Assembly: GCA_016179925.1 (NCBI GenBank)
Contig: JACPCG010000083.1
Location: forward strand, 1-48,502
Length of the DNA: 48,502 nt
From: Candidatus Rokuibacteriota bacterium
GTDB lineage: Bacteria; Methylomirabilota; Methylomirabilia; Rokubacteriales; CSP1-6
Direction of reading: 5' to 3'
The notes beneath the pieces were generated by a model. The model was not told where the DNA came from, ran no database searches, and was given only the letters and a program-made list of their open reading frames with translations. A program made the position numbers and the translations under genes. This document shows positions 26,996 to 33,389 of this stretch, piece after piece (position 1 is the stretch's first letter; each line of letters starts with the position of its first letter).

Positions 26996-27394
26996 TCACG
27001 GTCGAGCGCGGAAACCCTGATCGGCGAAGTCGCGGTCGAAGGCGAAGGCCGTCTCGACGCGCAACTCCCGCATCGTCGCGAAGCTCACGCAATCCACCAG
27101 GCTCAACTGTCGCCGCCCCACGGCGAGGAGCGCCGTGACGCCCAGGCGGTGCTCACTTTCTCCCACCCAGTGCACGCGGAGCACGGGGACCACGTCGTCG
27201 ACAAGCGCCCGCACGGCCTCCATCCCGAGCCGACTCTGCACGAGCGCGAAGGTTTCCACCAGCACGTAACTCGTCGTGACGAGCGGCTCGTCGCTCGTGA
27301 GCAGCGTTTCCCAGGTCGCGCGCGCGGGAGGATGCTGCGTGTCCCCGGCGTCGAGCACGGCCAGCAACGCCGAGGTGTCGACGAACACGCTCAT
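26996..27394 (-). CDS. PIN-domain toxin (VapC-like)
   Basis: A 132-residue PIN-domain protein with the acidic metal-binding residues Asp6 (VFVDTSAL), Glu47 (VLVETFAL), Asp101 (SLVDCVSF) and Asp120/Asp122 (AFDRDF). Such toxins cleave specific RNAs, often initiator tRNA or rRNA. Its ATG overlaps the stop of the RHH antitoxin by four bases, as in typical vapBC operons. The module sits between sugar genes in the opposite orientation, so it was probably inserted into the cluster. Confidence 0.92.
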   Translation of the reverse strand: MSVFVDTSALLAVLDAGDTQHPPARATWETLLTSDEPLVTTSYVLVETFALVQSRLGMEAVRALVDDVVPVLRVHWVGESEHRLGVTALLAVGRRQLSLVDCVSFATMRELRVETAFAFDRDFADQGFRARP

Positions 27395-27651
27395 CGCGTG
27401 AAGGTGTCGTCGAGGTAGCGGTCGTGCTCCGTGGCGAGATCGGTTCGGCCGGAGCGAAAGCGGCCGGCGGCGCGGAGTGCGCGCTGCCGGCGGTCGGCCT
27501 CGCCCTCGGGCGCGCCCCGTACGAGGAGATCGATCGCCTCGCGGATCAGCGCGGCGACCGATACGCCGCGCTCGGCCGCGAGCCGCTTGAGTTTGCGCAT
27601 CTGTGCTTCAGTGAACTGAACCTGGGTTCGAATCATCGCTCGCGCCATCAT
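27391..27651 (-). CDS. Ribbon-helix-helix antitoxin (VapB-like)
   Basis: An 86-residue protein; an in-frame ATG at 27636 (MIRTQVQFTEAQMRKLKRLA) is an equally good start. The N-terminal 45 residues are a ribbon-helix-helix DNA-binding fold (TQVQFTE strand, RGVSVAALIREAIDLLV helices). The acidic/basic tail should wrap the toxin and block its active site. As in other vapBC modules it is expected to repress its own promoter, but no operator is evident upstream. Confidence 0.88.
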   Translation of the reverse strand: MMARAMIRTQVQFTEAQMRKLKRLAAERGVSVAALIREAIDLLVRGAPEGEADRRQRALRAAGRFRSGRTDLATEHDRYLDDTFTR

Positions 27652-27736: not shown

Positions 27737-29953
27737 ATGAAGGCGCTGGTCGTCGGGGCGTCGGGGCTTGTCGGGGGCGCGCTCGTGCGTGTCCTCGAGC
27801 GGAGCGGCATCGAGGTCGCGGCCGCCGGCCACTCGCGGGCGAGCGGCGGAGCGTTCGCCCTCGACGTTCGTGACGCCGAGGCGGTCGAACGCGCGCTCGC
27901 CGACATCAAGCCCGACGTCGTCTTCCTCGCGGTGAATGTCCCCGGCGGCGTGGACCGGTGCGAAGAGCGCCCAGACGAGGCGTACGTCGTCAACGTCGCC
28001 GGCACCACACACGTCGCCGCGGCGGCTGCCACGCACGGTGCGACGCTCGTCTACTACTCCACCGACTACATCTTCGACGGCACGTCGGGCCCCTACGCCG
28101 AAGACCACGCGGCCCATCCCGTCAGCGTCTACGGACGCACCAAGCTCGAGGCCGAGCAGGCGGTGCTGAAGCTCGCGCCGCGCCCCCTGATCGTGCGCAC
28201 CACCGCCGTCTACGGCTGGGACCGCGCCTCGCGCAACTTCGCCATGCAGGTGTGGGAGCGGCTCGGCGCCGGCCAGCCGCTGCGCGCGCCCGACGACCAG
28301 CTTTGCAACCCGACACTGGCGGAGTACCTGGCCGAGGCGAGCGTGCGGCTCGTCCAGCAGGGGGTCGCGGGCGTCGTGAACGTCGTCGGCAAGGAGCGCG
28401 TCTCCCGCGTGGAGCTCGGCCGCCAGCTCGCCCGCGCGATGGCGCTCGACCCCGCGCTCATCACGCCCACGCCCACGAGCGAGCTGGGGCAGAAAGCGGC
28501 GCGCCCGCTCCAGGGCGGGCTCAAGACCGACAAGCTCACGGCGCTCCTCGGCACCGAGCCCCTCGACCTCGCCGAGTCGCTCAAGCGCTTCCGCCGCCAG
28601 TGGCGTGCCGACACCCACACGACAGGGGCGCCGAAGGCAGGCGGCGGCGCCGGAACGACCGAAGCCGAACAGCTCAAGCAGGAGATTCTCGCGAAAGTCC
28701 GCCGCTACTGGGAAGTCGCCCACCGGCCGGCGCCGTTCGTGCCGATCAAGAGCCGCGTCAACTACGCCGGCCGCGTCTATGGTCCCGAGGAGCTGGTGAA
28801 CCTCGTGGACGCCTCGCTCGACTTCTGGCTGACGCTCGGGCCGTGGGGCGATCTCTTCGAGGCGAAGCTCCGGAAGTACCTCGGCTGCCGCGACGTCGTC
28901 CTGGTGAACTCGGGCTCGACGGCGGATCTCGCTGCGGTCATGGCGCTGATGTCGCCGCTCCTCGACCGGCCGCTATGCCCGGGCGACGAGGTCATCACGC
29001 CGGCCGTGACGTTTCCGACCACGCTCGTGCCGCTCGTCCACGGCGGGCTCCTCCCGGTGTTCGTGGACTGCGAGGTGGGGACCTACAACGTGAACCCGCG
29101 GCTCCTCGAGGGCGCCATCGGGCCCCGGACGCGCGCCCTCATGGTCCCGCACACCCTCGGCAACCCGTGCGATCTCGACGTCGTCATGGACCTGGTCAAG
29201 CGCCACGATCTCTACCTCATCGAAGACGCGTGCGACGCCCTCGGCGGCACGTGGCGCGGCAAGCCCCTCGGGACCTTCGGCGATCTGGCCACGCTCAGCT
29301 TCTTTCCCGCGCATCACATCACGATGGGCGAGGGGGGCGCCGTCCTCGTCAACAACCCGAAGCTCGCGAAGATCGTCAGGTCGGTGCGCGACTGGGGTCG
29401 CGCTTGCTGGTGCGCGCCGGGCGAGTCCAACACCTGCGGCAAGCGCTTCGGCTGGCAGCTCGGCGAGCTGCCGCGCGGCTACGATCACAAGTACATCTAC
29501 TCGACGCTCGGCTACAACTTCAAACCGACGGACATGCAGGCCGCAATCGGCGTGGCGCAGCTCGACCGGCTGCGGGACTTCATCGAGCGCCGGCGCCAGA
29601 ACTTCGAGCGGCTCTATCACGCGCTCGCTCCCTTCCAGGACGGCCTGATCCTCCCGACGCTCGACCCGCGCGCGGACCCGTCGTGGTTCGGGTTCCCGAT
29701 CACCGTGCGCGCGGGGGTCTCCCGCAACGAGCTGGTGCAGCGGCTCGAGACCGCGAACATCGAAACGCGCCAGGTGTTCGGGGGGAACATCCTGAAGCAG
29801 CCCGGCTACCGCGACATCCCGCGGCGTATCCACGGCACGCTCGCCGAGACCGACCGGATCATGCGGGACACGTTCTTCGTCGGCGTCTACCCGGGCCTGA
29901 GCGACGGGATGCTCGAGCACGTAGTCGCCACGGTCCGGAGCTTCTTTCGTTAA
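27737..29953 (+). CDS. Fusion: RmlD-like reductase + RfbH/E1 CDP-4-keto-6-deoxyglucose 3-dehydrase
   Basis: A 738-residue single ORF. Residues 1-285 are an extended SDR like dTDP-4-dehydrorhamnose reductase: VVGASGLVGGALV, YYSTDYIFDGTSGPY, VYGRTKLEAEQ. After a Gly/Ala/Thr linker (~290-315), residues ~316-738 are RfbH/E1 (DdhC). His526 replaces the PLP-binding Lys in SFFPAHHITMGEGG, as in PMP-dependent 3-dehydrases, and Cys499, Cys557, Cys559 and Cys567 form exactly the C-X57-C-X-C-X7-C [2Fe-2S] signature of E1. It should remove the 3-hydroxyl of CDP-4-keto-6-deoxyglucose and then reduce the 4-keto group. The usual E3 reductase (DdhD) is not in the window. TAAGAT lies nine bases before the ATG. 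Confidence 0.93.
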   Translation: MKALVVGASGLVGGALVRVLERSGIEVAAAGHSRASGGAFALDVRDAEAVERALADIKPDVVFLAVNVPGGVDRCEERPDEAYVVNVAGTTHVAAAAATHGATLVYYSTDYIFDGTSGPYAEDHAAHPVSVYGRTKLEAEQAVLKLAPRPLIVRTTAVYGWDRASRNFAMQVWERLGAGQPLRAPDDQLCNPTLAEYLAEASVRLVQQGVAGVVNVVGKERVSRVELGRQLARAMALDPALITPTPTSELGQKAARPLQGGLKTDKLTALLGTEPLDLAESLKRFRRQWRADTHTTGAPKAGGGAGTTEAEQLKQEILAKVRRYWEVAHRPAPFVPIKSRVNYAGRVYGPEELVNLVDASLDFWLTLGPWGDLFEAKLRKYLGCRDVVLVNSGSTADLAAVMALMSPLLDRPLCPGDEVITPAVTFPTTLVPLVHGGLLPVFVDCEVGTYNVNPRLLEGAIGPRTRALMVPHTLGNPCDLDVVMDLVKRHDLYLIEDACDALGGTWRGKPLGTFGDLATLSFFPAHHITMGEGGAVLVNNPKLAKIVRSVRDWGRACWCAPGESNTCGKRFGWQLGELPRGYDHKYIYSTLGYNFKPTDMQAAIGVAQLDRLRDFIERRRQNFERLYHALAPFQDGLILPTLDPRADPSWFGFPITVRAGVSRNELVQRLETANIETRQVFGGNILKQPGYRDIPRRIHGTLAETDRIMRDTFFVGVYPGLSDGMLEHVVATVRSFFR

Positions 29954-30002
29954 TTTCGCGAACGCCTCGATCGCCGTTGCGCTGGCCGCGGGCGCCGCCG
30001 GG

Positions 30003-31508
30003 ATGATCGGGGTCTACCTCGACACCGCGTGGCACCGGACCGTCGGGCGCGACTCGTTTTTCATCCTGCCCCACCTCTTCATCTACGGCGGCGGCCTCGG
30101 CATCTGGGCCGCCGCTCTCGCGTGCATCGCCCGCGCGACGCTCGGCCGCGGCGACGAGTTCGGCGGCCCGGTGCTCGGGCTCGGACGTCTCCGGCTGCCG
30201 TTCGGCTTCGCCCTCACCGCGGCTGGCATCGTCGTGATCCTGGCGGCGGCGCCGGTGGACGCGTGGTGGCACAACACCTTCGGGAAGGACGTCCTCATCT
30301 GGAGCCCGCCCCACCTGCAGCTCCACCTCGGCGCCGGCATCACCGCGATCGGGCTCCTCTTCGCCGTGGCGGCTCAGCGGGGCCGCGGCGCCCTCGCCCG
30401 CCCGTGGCTCTGGCAGGGCGCGATGCTGGGCGTGCTGGTGGATCTCGTCCACCGCGGTCACTTCGTCCTCGCGCACTACACGATGCTTCCCCACGCGCGC
30501 ACGCCCGACCTCTACCCGTTGCTGGTCGCGATGCTGGCGCCCTTCGTCCTCACCGCCGCCGCGCGCGCCCTCGGGCCCTGGGCGCCGACGCTCGCGTGCC
30601 TCGCGTTCCTCGGCGTGGCCTGGCTCATGGACGTGATGCTCCGGCTCATCGACTACGAGCGTTACACCTTGACGCCGATCCTGGCCGCGCCAGCGGCCAT
30701 GCTGTCGCTCGTGTTCTGGCGGGCAGGGCGACAGCGCGACCGGGCCTGGCTCGCCGTAGTGGCCGGCGTGGCGTTCGTCGCCGTCTTCGTGGTGATGGAA
30801 GTCGCGTGGATGCGCTGGCTCGTCGGGCGGCCGTGGCCGGCTGAGCGCGTGCTGGCCGGGCTCCCGCTGGTTCTCCTGACCGGTGCGCTCAGCGGCTGGG
30901 TCGGCTGGGCGCTCGGCGGCTTCCTGCGTGCCGCGGCCGCGCCCACGCGTGCGGTCGCCGCGGCGGCCGGCGGGGAGTTCGGGAGCCAGGCGCGCGCCCG
31001 CGCGGCCGCCGTCGCTGCGCTGGCGCTCGCGCTCGTCGGGCTCGTCGCGACGTACCAGCCGCAGCGCTACGGCCCGCCGATGACGGTGGACGAGCTGAAG
31101 CTCACGCCGTTCACCGCCTTCCCGTACACGGAGGCGATCTTCTGGAACGCGTTCTTCGCCGACGGCTGGCCATTCGGACGCGATGTCGAGGCACGGAGCG
31201 AGGGGATCATCGACGGCATGCCAATGCCCGTCGGTCCCGCGTGGTGCGCGCCGACCGAGGCCGGGCTGGCGACGGCGCTCCCGCGCGTGCGCTTCGCCAT
31301 GGAGGTGAACGGCACGCCCGTGGACCTCACGCCGTACCCGCTCGCGCGCCTCCGGCTGCGCGAGGGCGAGCATTGCGCGTGGGTCGGCGTCGCCTCCGCG
31401 TTCCAGCGGGCGAGCCAGAATCGCTTCGTCTACACGATCGAGCACGCCGCGCTCGGCGGGCCGACACGGATCCGTGTCGACTTGCTCGTGACGTTCAAGG
31501 ATCCATGA
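30003..31508 (+). CDS. Polytopic membrane protein of unknown family, paralogue A
   Basis: About 501 residues with about eight membrane segments (residues 20-345) and a C-terminal soluble domain of about 150 residues. Conserved features shared with the neighbour at 32028 are DTAWHRTVGRDSFF, PH in the next segment, DAWWHNTFGKDVLIWSPPHL and HYTMLPHARTPDLYPLL, giving several His, Asp and Trp at membrane boundaries that could bind a metal. Two Cys (AWCAPTE and EHCAWVG) are also shared in the C-terminal domain and might form a disulfide. I recognise no known family. In-frame hydrophobic codons run upstream to 29943 without ATG, GTG or TTG, so the true start may be non-canonical. Confidence 0.85.
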   Translation: MIGVYLDTAWHRTVGRDSFFILPHLFIYGGGLGIWAAALACIARATLGRGDEFGGPVLGLGRLRLPFGFALTAAGIVVILAAAPVDAWWHNTFGKDVLIWSPPHLQLHLGAGITAIGLLFAVAAQRGRGALARPWLWQGAMLGVLVDLVHRGHFVLAHYTMLPHARTPDLYPLLVAMLAPFVLTAAARALGPWAPTLACLAFLGVAWLMDVMLRLIDYERYTLTPILAAPAAMLSLVFWRAGRQRDRAWLAVVAGVAFVAVFVVMEVAWMRWLVGRPWPAERVLAGLPLVLLTGALSGWVGWALGGFLRAAAAPTRAVAAAAGGEFGSQARARAAAVAALALALVGLVATYQPQRYGPPMTVDELKLTPFTAFPYTEAIFWNAFFADGWPFGRDVEARSEGIIDGMPMPVGPAWCAPTEAGLATALPRVRFAMEVNGTPVDLTPYPLARLRLREGEHCAWVGVASAFQRASQNRFVYTIEHAALGGPTRIRVDLLVTFKDP

Positions 31509-31539
31509 CAAGTGTGCGGGTGTGCTCTTTTGGAGACAC

Positions 31540-31568
31540 TTGAACGGACGCACGACGTGCTGTAAGAG
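31540..31568 (+). promoter_or_regulatory. Putative promoter before the coiled-coil ORF
   Basis: TTGAAC (31540-31545) and TAAGAG (31563-31568) have a 17-base spacer. The -10 box ends six bases before the GTG at 31575, so the transcript would be leaderless. CAAGTGT and its complement ACACTTG flank the region just upstream and could form a hairpin or operator. Confidence 0.45.
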
Positions 31569-31574
31569 TTGGGC

Positions 31575-31893
31575 GTGACGCAGAGCGAATACCAACAGCT
31601 CTTCGAGTTCCTGGGGGACCAGTTCGCCGCGGTCGATCGGCGCTTTGGCACGCTCGACCGCCGGTTTGACGCGCTCGACCACCGTGTCGACGAGGGATTC
31701 CGTCTATCGTCGGCTCGAGCGCCTCGAGCAAGAATACTACGCGATCGTCGAGGTGCTGCGACGCATCGAGAGCTTGCTCGCTGACGAACAGGTCAAGCGC
31801 GAGATTCTGGAGCGGAGGGTGAACGAGCTGAAGCATCAGGTTGCCGCTCTGCAGGATCGAGTCCAGGAGCTGGAGCAGCGACTCCGCGGGTAA
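31575..31893 (+). pseudogene. Frameshifted coiled-coil protein
   Basis: The first frame reads MTQSEYQQLFEFLGDQFAAV, then RRFGTLDRRFDALDHRVDEG; around 31700 the frame moves by one base and continues VYRRLERLEQEYYAIVEVLR, with IESLLADEQ and LERRVNELKHQVAAL heptads, to the end QRLRG. Rejoined, it is a protein of about 106 residues that is almost entirely coiled coil. It is a paralogue of the truncated ORF at 21825. It sits between two related membrane protein genes. A sequencing error cannot be excluded. Confidence 0.7.
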
Positions 31894-32027
31894 CAGTCTC
31901 TCCGGTCACGCTCGCGCTCGCGCTCGCTCTGGGCGCGGGCTGGTTCGGCTTTCCCGGCCTCCTCTGGGACGTCGCCTGGCACCGGACGATCGGCCGCGAC
32001 ACCTTCTTCTCGCCGCCGCACGCGCTC

Positions 32028-33389
32028 ATGTACACGGGCGTCGCGGCCAACGGCCTCGTCAGCGCGTGGGCGGTCGTCTGGGGCCGCCGTCGCCACGGGG
32101 CGCCCGCCGGCTTCACGCTCGGTGGCCTCGGGTTCGTGCTGGCCGTGGCCGGCGCGGTGCTCGACGAGTGGTGGCACACGAACGTCGGCAAGGACGTGAA
32201 CCTCTGGAGCCCGCCGCACCTCGTCGGCCTCGCCGGCACGGTGCTCATCGCGATCGGGCTCGTCTTCGCCCTCGCCCGCCACACGCGCTATGGGCTCGAG
32301 CCTCGCTGGTGGGCGCCGCGTGTGCTCCTGCTCTTCGGCTTCGCGGACCTGATCCACAAATCCATGGTCGCGCTCGACCACTACACGCTCGATGCCTGGG
32401 GGCGCACGCCCGACTTCTATCCGCTTCTCCTGGCGCTCTTCCTGCCGGCGATCCTCGTGACCGCCGTCCGCGCGCTCGGCGCCGGCGCCGCCACGGGAGC
32501 GGCCGTGCTCTTCACCGTGCAGCACGCCCTGATCCTCCTCGTGCTGCTCGCTTTCGACATGCGCGTGCCGACCTTCACACCGATCCCGATCCTGCCCGCG
32601 CTCGCGGTGGATGTGGCCGTGGCCGTCTTCGCGGCCCGCCGCGCCTCGCCAGCCGCCGCCGTCGCGGCCGGCATGGCGTTCGTGCTCGTGCTCTACGCGC
32701 AGGAGACCGCGTGGATGGCGTGGACCGTCGCGCGGCCGTGGGAATTCGCCCGTGTCCTCGCCGCCATCCCCGCCGTCACGCTGACCGCGATCGGGAGCGC
32801 CTGGGTCGGCTGGGTGCTGGGGACGCTGCTGGCGAGCGCTGCCGAGGCGCGGCCGCTCGCTGAGGCCTTCCGGAGCCCACAACGCACGCGCGCGGCTGTC
32901 GCTGCCATGCTCGCGCTCGTCGCCGTCGGTCTCGTCGTCGCCTATCGGCCCTCGCGAGCCGAGCCGCCGGCCAGCGTCGCCGCGCTCGGCCTCGCCCCCG
33001 ACGTCGGCTTCGACTACCGCGACGCCGTCTTCTGGGAAGCGCTCCTGCCTGACGGCTGGCGCGAGCCCGGCGTCCACGGCGCCTACCAGGAAGCGATCGT
33101 GGACGGCCGCGGGATCCCGCTCGGCCCCGCGTGGTGCGCGCGCGACGACGCGACGCTCCAGCGGGAGCTGGCGACGGTCCGCTTCGGGCTCGCGATCAAC
33201 GGCGAGCCCGTAGACCTCGCGCGCTACCCGCGAACGCGCCGGCGGCTGCGCGACGGCGCCCTGTGCGAGTGGGTCGGCGTCTCGGCGGCCACGCCGCGCC
33301 CGGGGTTCCAGGAGCTGGTGTACACGCTCGGCCGCGCGTCGGGCCCGCCGTCCAGGCTGACGGTGCAGCTCAGGGTGAAGGAGCCCTGA
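32028..33389 (+). CDS. Polytopic membrane protein of unknown family, paralogue B
   Basis: 453 residues from the first ATG. The frame is open upstream to about 31880 and encodes a hydrophobic helix plus DVAWHRTIGRDTFFSPPHAL, matching paralogue A, but has no standard start codon there. Shared motifs are DEWWHTNVGKDVNLWSPPHL, DHYTLDAWGRTPDFYPLL and a C-terminal domain with PAWCARDD and ALCEWVGVS. Topology and length match paralogue A, so the pair arose by tandem duplication. Conserved His and Asp at the membrane face and paired Cys outside suggest a cofactor- or metal-dependent membrane enzyme or sensor. That is inference. The 3' end overlaps the convergent methyltransferase gene by 20 bases. 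Confidence 0.85.
   Translation: MYTGVAANGLVSAWAVVWGRRRHGAPAGFTLGGLGFVLAVAGAVLDEWWHTNVGKDVNLWSPPHLVGLAGTVLIAIGLVFALARHTRYGLEPRWWAPRVLLLFGFADLIHKSMVALDHYTLDAWGRTPDFYPLLLALFLPAILVTAVRALGAGAATGAAVLFTVQHALILLVLLAFDMRVPTFTPIPILPALAVDVAVAVFAARRASPAAAVAAGMAFVLVLYAQETAWMAWTVARPWEFARVLAAIPAVTLTAIGSAWVGWVLGTLLASAAEARPLAEAFRSPQRTRAAVAAMLALVAVGLVVAYRPSRAEPPASVAALGLAPDVGFDYRDAVFWEALLPDGWREPGVHGAYQEAIVDGRGIPLGPAWCARDDATLQRELATVRFGLAINGEPVDLARYPRTRRRLRDGALCEWVGVSAATPRPGFQELVYTLGRASGPPSRLTVQLRVKEP

Follow-up and report, generated by a model that had tools for sequence, protein, structure and literature searches.

Two tandem membrane proteins of a Candidatus Rokuibacteriota bacterium with a probable PmoC/AmoC-like metal core

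The window analysed, i.e., the whole stretch of 48,502 nucleotides of contig JACPCG010000083.1 from a Candidatus Rokuibacteriota bacterium, contains two neighbouring + strand genes for membrane proteins, here termed A and B. The two are paralogues (43% identity across 502 columns; BLASTP E = 2e-83), as the first-pass annotation had proposed, and all of the motifs that it had described as common to them (WHRTxGRDxFF, WWHxxxGKDxxxWSPPHL, HYT...RTPDxYPLL and two Cys) were found in both. Its size range of 450-500 residues still covers B, which has 499 residues with TM1 included, and was corrected to ~520 for A. Coding on the + strand is indicated for both genes by a GC3 of 0.93 against a GC2 of 0.53-0.54, and is further supported by B orthologues that are 72-78% identical. 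The features of the two genes are as follows.

29943..31508, + strand: protein A, ~521 aa, with a four-helix PmoC-like metal core (probable), more TM helices and a C-terminal Ig-like domain
30021..30074, + strand: first triad of A, D27-x3-H31-x12-H44, CuC-like, spaced as D156/H160/H173 of PmoC
30258..30314, + strand: second triad of A, D106-x3-H110-x13-H124, CuD-like with Asp for Asn, spaced as N227/H231/H245 of PmoC
31056..31505, + strand: C-terminal extracytoplasmic domain of A with two invariant Cys, assigned by alignment to B
31890..33389, + strand: protein B, ~499 aa, paralogous to A and built in the same way
31890..32303, + strand: TM1-TM4 core of B, a duplicated helical hairpin and probable PmoC/AmoC homologue (AF2, Foldseek, hmmsearch, internal duplication)
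31968..32021, + strand: first triad of B, D27/H31/H44, invariant in 47 homologues
32163..32219, + strand: second triad of B, D92/H96/H110, invariant in 47 homologues
32946..33386, + strand: C-terminal Ig-like beta-sandwich of B with C416 and C459 (AF2 strands, Ig-fold matches of the full-length model, invariance)

The genes are surrounded by a sugar-nucleotide and glycosyltransferase cluster, and no copper gene was recognised in the window. A transporter or glycosyl-carrier role, as the sugar cluster might suggest, was rejected, given that A and B lack Pfam support for it.

Both proteins have a hydrophobic in-frame stretch upstream without a standard start. The frame of A is open from 29925, its sole ATG (30003) lies only six codons ahead of the first ligand, and the next upstream start candidate is an ATC at 29970. 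In B, the sole ATG (32028) follows the first ligand triad, ahead of which only a CTG at 31929 is present. Most orthologues of A and B start with ATG or GTG 26-37 codons ahead of the first ligand Asp. Thus, TM1 is real, and a default gene call for B would drop the first metal site. The coiled-coil ORF between A and B, which had been noted as a gene, is disrupted near 31,700, where the frame changes, and lacks conservation: in relatives, the two genes are either separated by a gap of ~11 nt (G036 and G089) or have the capsule gene Wzi between them. The ORF was rejected as a component of the system.

In PmoC, the CuC ligands are D156, H160 and H173, those of CuD are N227, H231 and H245, and Arg165 and Phe177 are close by (PMC12576850). 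The family of A and B has the Asp-x3-His-x12-His pattern of the CuC site of PmoC/AmoC, with one additional residue ahead of the last CuC-type His in some Actinomycetota members, and R36 and Y48 of B correspond to Arg165 and Phe177. The Asn-x3-His-x13-His pattern of the CuD site is not matched in full, as its spacing and both His are retained while Asn is replaced by Asp. All six ligand positions are invariant both in an alignment of 47 homologues and among 32 divergent members. The metal site of His and Asp at the membrane and the exposed domain that were postulated from the window alone are thus well supported, with six residues at the CuC and CuD positions and a C-terminus predicted to be an Ig-like beta-sandwich.

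Structure and profile searches converged on PmoC/AmoC. A model of the 138-aa core of B (AF2, pLDDT 85) was compared by Foldseek with the PDB, and ranks 1-8 were all AmoC/PmoC, with a probability of 1.00, query TM scores of 0.61-0.73, ~20% identity and E-values of 0.011-0.067; rank 9 was a designed helical bundle (E = 0.42). The fold of the metal-bearing helices of PmoC/AmoC is thus found in B with a query TM score of up to 0.73, in a predicted model only. By hmmsearch, the core profile had 14 matches at E <= 10 among 177,635 PDB sequences, every one of them AmoC/PmoC (best E = 0.0015), and the best 10 matches of a profile built from the 32 divergent members were likewise all AmoC/PmoC (top E = 7e-4). 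Alignment of the A/B family with PmoC by hhalign (E = 2.5e-5) paired D/H with D/H and D/H with N/H. When 5,010 ORFs were searched with a PmoC HMM, the 22 matches next after PmoC itself were family members, and in the reverse search PmoC sequences ranked immediately below the family.

It should be noted that neither Pfam nor NCBIfam holds a family for A or B, and to this extent the earlier description of an unknown family was right. The curated cut-offs of PF04896/TIGR03078 were not reached (best E = 0.053 for Pfam and 0.013 for NCBIfam), and B scored 12.8 bits against a PmoC/AmoC cut-off of 280.6. PmoC was also absent from the Foldseek top 50 for the full-length model, in which the Ig-like C-terminus dominated and the membrane part had no useful match. 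A match of the full profile to phosphatidylglycerophosphatase B spanned only low-complexity C-terminal helices and was rejected. The first-pass annotation had named a clear match to a known transporter or oxidase family as what would count against an undescribed system; of this, remote homology to CuMMO subunit C was found and membership was not. We consider it very probable that the N-terminal helices of A and B are remote homologues of the four-helix metal core of PmoC/AmoC.

Further analyses revealed that both metal half-sites sit on an internally duplicated helical hairpin (hhalign probability 97.7, E = 8.6e-12, score 63.7 against <= 12.5 in 40 shuffles). The second hairpin alone had no significant similarity to the second hairpin of PmoC, and a duplication between hairpins 1 and 2 of PmoC was undetectable by sequence. 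In addition to this strong repeat, the family differs from PmoC/AmoC in its Asp at the CuD position, in lacking the N-terminal part of PmoC ahead of the core, in the extra TM helices and Ig-like domain that follow the core in A and B, in the lack of PmoA/PmoB in most of its genomes and in scores far under the family cut-offs. Shared with PmoC/AmoC are the four-helix core, the order and spacing of the triads, the Arg and the aromatic residue, and the location of ligands at helix ends.

A and B are no local oddity but a small branch of a large family that spans several phyla, with members in Methylomirabilota/Rokubacteria, Actinomycetota, Chloroflexota and Acidobacteriota; a limited literature search found no published description of it. 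In an annotated plasmid collection, one member had two matches and another had one. PmoA (PF02461) and PmoB (PF04744) were missing in 29 of 32 family-carrying genomes checked, including the source genome (81% complete), and a three-subunit monooxygenase is therefore excluded there, insofar as incomplete genomes can show this.

An extracytoplasmic beta-sandwich that is Ig-like, cupredoxin-like or a true CopC recurs in the family, either fused or adjacent to the core. C416 and C459 (B numbering) are invariant across 13 A/B orthologues. In Mycolicibacterium vanbaalenii, CopC (PF04234, 2.7e-23) adjoins the family gene, whose product is WP_099962906.1, with CtaG, COX3 and TlpA close by. Actinomycetota members have an adjacent cupredoxin-like lipoprotein with a conserved HVH, Chloroflexota members have a secreted beta-sandwich protein adjacent or fused, and at several Chloroflexota/Acidobacteriota loci the beta-sandwich partner is predicted to begin with His. 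A ferric-reductase-like heme protein adjoins an Acidimicrobiia member, to which it could supply electrons. A further paralogue in the source genome lies beside a Cu/Zn-SOD-like gene. The partners are clade-specific, with no neighbour conserved throughout the family; by sequence, the C-terminal domain of A/B has no link to the domain of the Chloroflexota partner, and no family was found for the third protein encoded in the actinobacterial operon. This pairing of a membrane core with a beta-sandwich, as partner gene or fusion, resembles that of subunit C with the domains of PmoB, which we take to be an extracytoplasmic beta-sandwich module. It differs in that no sequence relation to PmoB (PF04744) was found and in that the C-terminal domain of A/B appears Ig-like. 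CopD is the membrane partner that works with CopC, and the family is similar to CopC-CopD in combining a membrane protein with an extracytoplasmic copper binder, CopC itself adjoining the M. vanbaalenii member. However, no match to CopD or any other Pfam family was obtained for the M. vanbaalenii protein or for the members in the alignments of 47 and 32.

These observations suggest, with a probability of roughly 0.6, that A and B are membrane metalloproteins in which a PmoC-like core is combined with an extracytoplasmic module, most likely as a copper redox enzyme. Each of the two duplicated hairpins provides an Asp-x3-His where one helix ends and a further His where the next begins, so that a D-H-H half-site results at the CuC position and another at the CuD position. 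The beta-sandwich module, fused C-terminally in A/B and some others or encoded by the next gene, might deliver copper or electrons, and O2 might be used on a membrane-soluble substrate without PmoA/PmoB. Homology and the cupredoxin/CopC partners indicate that the metal is probably copper. Assignment of the family as copper redox enzymes of the membrane is the weakest step, and we rate it slightly below even odds. Points against the overall reading are the scores under the family cut-offs, the modest Foldseek E-values, the outcome for the second hairpin alone, the missing PmoA/PmoB, the Asp at the CuD position and a sugar-cluster neighbourhood in which no copper gene was recognised.

It is improbable that A and B represent genes in decay or misassemblies in the source genome. 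Both lack a standard start ahead of TM1, and the intervening ORF is frameshifted as well, but their frames are long and intact with the GC3 pattern of coding DNA, every ligand and Cys is retained at high identity to orthologues, a B orthologue (L008) likewise lacks a standard start, and the missing starts are explicable by rare ATC/CTG starts or assembly errors. Slightly less probable still is convergence, in which a polytopic membrane protein of unrelated origin that binds Zn or Fe would have acquired the D-x3-H...H spacing of PmoC by chance. The weak pairwise statistics, the lack of significant similarity of the second hairpin when compared alone and the Asp at the CuD position are consistent with it; the agreement in two spacings, Arg, aromatic residue, helix positions and order argues against it, as do fold and profile searches of the whole PDB that pick AmoC/PmoC and little else and the reciprocal ranking of the family and PmoC.

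A more serious alternative, to which we give about one chance in three, is copper handling, in which the PmoC-like core would receive, import or sense copper at the membrane together with a CopC- or cupredoxin-like binder on the extracytoplasmic side, in the manner of CopD and CopC. The M. vanbaalenii locus with CopC, CtaG, COX3 and TlpA, the cupredoxin-like lipoproteins, the partners with a predicted initial His, the Cu/Zn-SOD-like gene next to the source-genome paralogue and the missing PmoA/PmoB are all in its favour, and a CopC partner is as compatible with copper handling as with catalysis. Six invariant ligands in two sites at PmoC positions, together with the Arg and the aromatic residue, resemble a fixed site more than a transport route, and neither the ferric-reductase-like neighbour in Acidimicrobiia nor the glycosyltransferase context of A and B points to trafficking.

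If A and B are indeed copper redox enzymes, they may, more tentatively, belong to a superfamily of stand-alone copper enzymes of the membrane, present in several phyla, from or alongside which PmoC/AmoC arose, with half-sites formed by duplication of a D-H-H hairpin and a cupredoxin/Ig/CopC-like module in place of PmoA/PmoB. The published trees examined include only xmoCAB operons. The catalytic copper site and the evolutionary origin of pMMO/AMO are open questions on which the family bears: having the ligand positions of subunit C and lacking subunits A and B, it would be a natural outgroup, and it would offer a simpler protein in which the CuC/CuD site can be studied by itself, with culturable carriers such as M. 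vanbaalenii available. Among the genes of soil, marine and actinobacterial genomes that are annotated as "hypothetical protein", some may encode copper redox proteins.

Genes A and B of the window encode tandem paralogous membrane proteins that share 43% identity:

29943-31508, + strand, gene A, paralogue of B
31890-33389, + strand, gene B, paralogue of A

The first-pass annotation placed both in an unknown family, which stands in that a Pfam search of both proteins returned no family and falls in that profile and fold searches point to subunit C of the copper membrane monooxygenases (CuMMO; PmoC/AmoC). NCBIfam gave nothing on A or B beyond a sub-threshold match of B residues 26-49 to methane/ammonia monooxygenase subunit C (E 0.063); the relation to PmoC/AmoC was therefore put to test. 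In hhalign, the A/B family aligned with PmoC at E 2.5e-5 and wider family sets at E 1.3e-3 and 1.1e-4. When all PDB sequences were searched (hmmsearch) with a profile of the core (TM1-TM4 of B, two helical hairpins), the 14 matches at E up to 10 were all AmoC/PmoC (best, 0.0015), and the best ten PDB matches of a divergent-set profile were AmoC/PmoC throughout (top E 7e-4). Reciprocal ranking of the family and PmoC profiles among 5,010 ORFs was also counted in favour of homology. For the AlphaFold2 model of the 138-residue core (pLDDT 85, pTM 0.77), Foldseek ranks 1-8 against the PDB were AmoC/PmoC (probability 1.00, TMq 0.61-0.73, E 0.011-0.067), followed by a gap to E 0.42. PmoC was absent from the top 50 Foldseek matches of the full-length model, which is dominated by a C-terminal Ig-like domain. 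Hairpin 1 alone scored 19.8 against PmoC hairpin 1, compared to 7.7 in 60 shuffles; hairpin 2 alone was not above shuffles against PmoC hairpin 2. No one number is decisive, and homology of the core to PmoC/AmoC is accepted as well supported because several lines agree. Profile search and structure prediction, the kinds of check proposed at first pass, each single out AmoC/PmoC for the core.

Almost all residues invariant among 47 members belong to a pattern that occurs twice, as D-x2-W-H-x3-G-R-D...P-H in TM1-2 and as D-x2-W-H-x3-G-x-D...S-P-P-H in TM3-4. The six D/H positions are also invariant in the second, divergent set (n = 32, chiefly Actinomycetota and Chloroflexota). In M. capsulatus PmoC, CuC is bound by Asp156/His160/His173 and CuD by Asn227/His231/His245, with Arg165 and Phe177 beside the copper site (PMC12576850). 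The ligand spacings of 4+13 and 4+14 are common to PmoC and A/B, R36 and Y48 of B are spaced from the ligands as Arg165 and Phe177 are, and the sole ligand change is Asn227 to Asp. The suggested His/Asp metal site at the membrane is thus borne out at the sequence level by six positions that correspond to the CuC/CuD ligands, and the metal bound would be copper.

The TM1-2 and TM3-4 profiles of the family aligned with each other at a probability of 97.7 (E 8.6e-12) and a score of 63.7, whereas 40 column shuffles reached 12.5 at most; therefore, the two half-sites are copies. No internal duplication is seen by sequence in PmoC itself, and the family may thus have kept the older state, a direction that we infer.

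The hydrophobic in-frame stretch previously noted upstream of each gene was confirmed as TM1, part of A and B; in most orthologues an ATG or GTG is present 26-37 codons ahead of the first ligand Asp. Neither A nor B has an in-frame ATG, GTG or TTG upstream of TM1, and the ATG of B at 32028 comes 3' of the first ligand triad. Rare starts (ATC 29970, CTG 31929) or assembly error may account for this. The coiled-coil gene noted between A and B at first pass is discarded as part of the system, as the intervening ORF is not conserved in genomes with the tandem pair. Within 31575-31893 its frame seems to shift near 31,700, which splits it into VTQSEYQQLFEFLGDQ... in one frame and VYRRLERLEQEYY... 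in another.

A and B form two distinct clades among their relatives (support 98/100 each, unrooted tree), and the tandem pair is found in 7 genomes (G000, G036, G037, G038, G039, G047 and G089) of the family-level clade. In their own genome (81% complete, 223 contigs, the window being C12), to which Candidatus Rokubacteria MAGs (Methylomirabilota) are the closest named relatives, a third paralogue on contig C16 adjoins a Cu/Zn-superoxide-dismutase-like gene. The pair is surrounded by a sugar-nucleotide and glycosyltransferase cluster, within which 26996-27651 (- strand) carries a ribbon-helix-helix-like ORF and then a PIN-domain-like ORF that look like a VapBC-type toxin-antitoxin pair. One 738-aa ORF (27737-29953) is an apparent fusion of an RmlD-like dehydratase/reductase and a DegT-type aminotransferase.

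Profile matches to A/B occur in 46 of 95 Methylomirabilota genomes, and the wider profile matches in 41/297 Actinomycetota, 38/201 Chloroflexota and 5/149 Acidobacteriota genomes sampled. No aligned family member (sets of 47 and 32) had a Pfam match over the core at the curated cut-off, and both annotated records found are labelled "hypothetical protein." Two Chloroflexota loci (L141, L142) likewise carry tandem pairs, with a more divergent D-x3-H...H pattern. A very divergent member (LYIDGWSHRHVALDTFFSPYHAIFYSG; L059/L060) occurs in Methylomirabilota genomes G035/G034, which have genuine pMMO genes elsewhere, and the Rokubacterial relative G038 has a genuine divergent pmoCAB-type operon (C365:5680-8747; L057, L176, L179) besides its tandem pair. 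The same gene A is found on Rokubacterial L034 and on contig L035 (MGTY01000022.1), whose label, Elusimicrobia GWA2_69_24, probably reflects mis-binning.

PmoA and PmoB are absent in 29 of 32 family-bearing genomes; in the other three, genuine pmoA and pmoB are located elsewhere in the genome. The recurrent partner is an extramembrane beta-sandwich module whose form differs by clade. In A/B it is a predicted Ig-like domain at the C-terminus, in which two Cys are invariant, in keeping with the exposed domain first proposed. In Chloroflexota and Acidobacteriota we read an adjacent gene as encoding a secreted beta-sandwich plus TM protein, which has no Pfam family; four such partners have a predicted mature N-terminal His, and at L145 the Chloroflexota-type domain is fused to the family protein. 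No sequence link was found between this domain and the A/B Ig-like domain. In Actinomycetota, a cupredoxin-like lipoprotein with a conserved HVH is followed by a membrane protein of ~430 aa, an order kept in several loci; the L152 lipoprotein has a match to the C-terminal region of NosZ (E 8.9e-6). The actinobacterial loci L186-L189 and L192-L194 (e.g., L188:7340-11155) share a conserved operon of three genes, for the PmoC-like protein, the HVH cupredoxin-like lipoprotein and, matching no known family, a membrane protein of 420-445 aa (LAHGLGGSTDLPIP...). In Mycolicibacterium vanbaalenii the module is a genuine CopC (PF04234, 2.7e-23), encoded immediately upstream of the family gene within a copper/cytochrome-oxidase cluster that also has CtaG, COX3 and TlpA. 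The gene next to an Acidimicrobiia member encodes a ferric-reductase-like protein, a DsbD-TM protein is encoded nearby, and a ferric-reductase-like gene is seen again at L047. Though not uniform, these contexts favour copper and redox.

No description of the family was found in the open journal literature searched, where the matches dealt with CuMMOs proper or with unrelated subjects; a paper on CuMMO evolution is concerned with xmoCAB operons (PMC6215863). As to a known oxidase family, A and B have remote homology to CuMMO subunit C. The family would work like part of that subunit and is not a member of PF04896/TIGR03078: its scores stay below the cut-offs, Asp replaces the ligand Asn, and the partner subunits are missing from most genomes.

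With the PmoC-homologous four-helix core, invariant D-H-H pairs, duplicated hairpin, lack of PmoA/B and recurring partners as groundwork, the two half-sites would act together and the extramembrane module would deliver copper or electrons to the core. We prefer to regard the family as a putative membrane copper redox enzyme using O2. The main rival is copper handling together with a CopC-like partner. Coordinates of the M. vanbaalenii locus are as follows:

L184:7823-10584, M. vanbaalenii plasmid NZ_CP126903.1, CopC gene and family gene ("hypothetical protein")

M. vanbaalenii provides a culturable organism for tests on the family.
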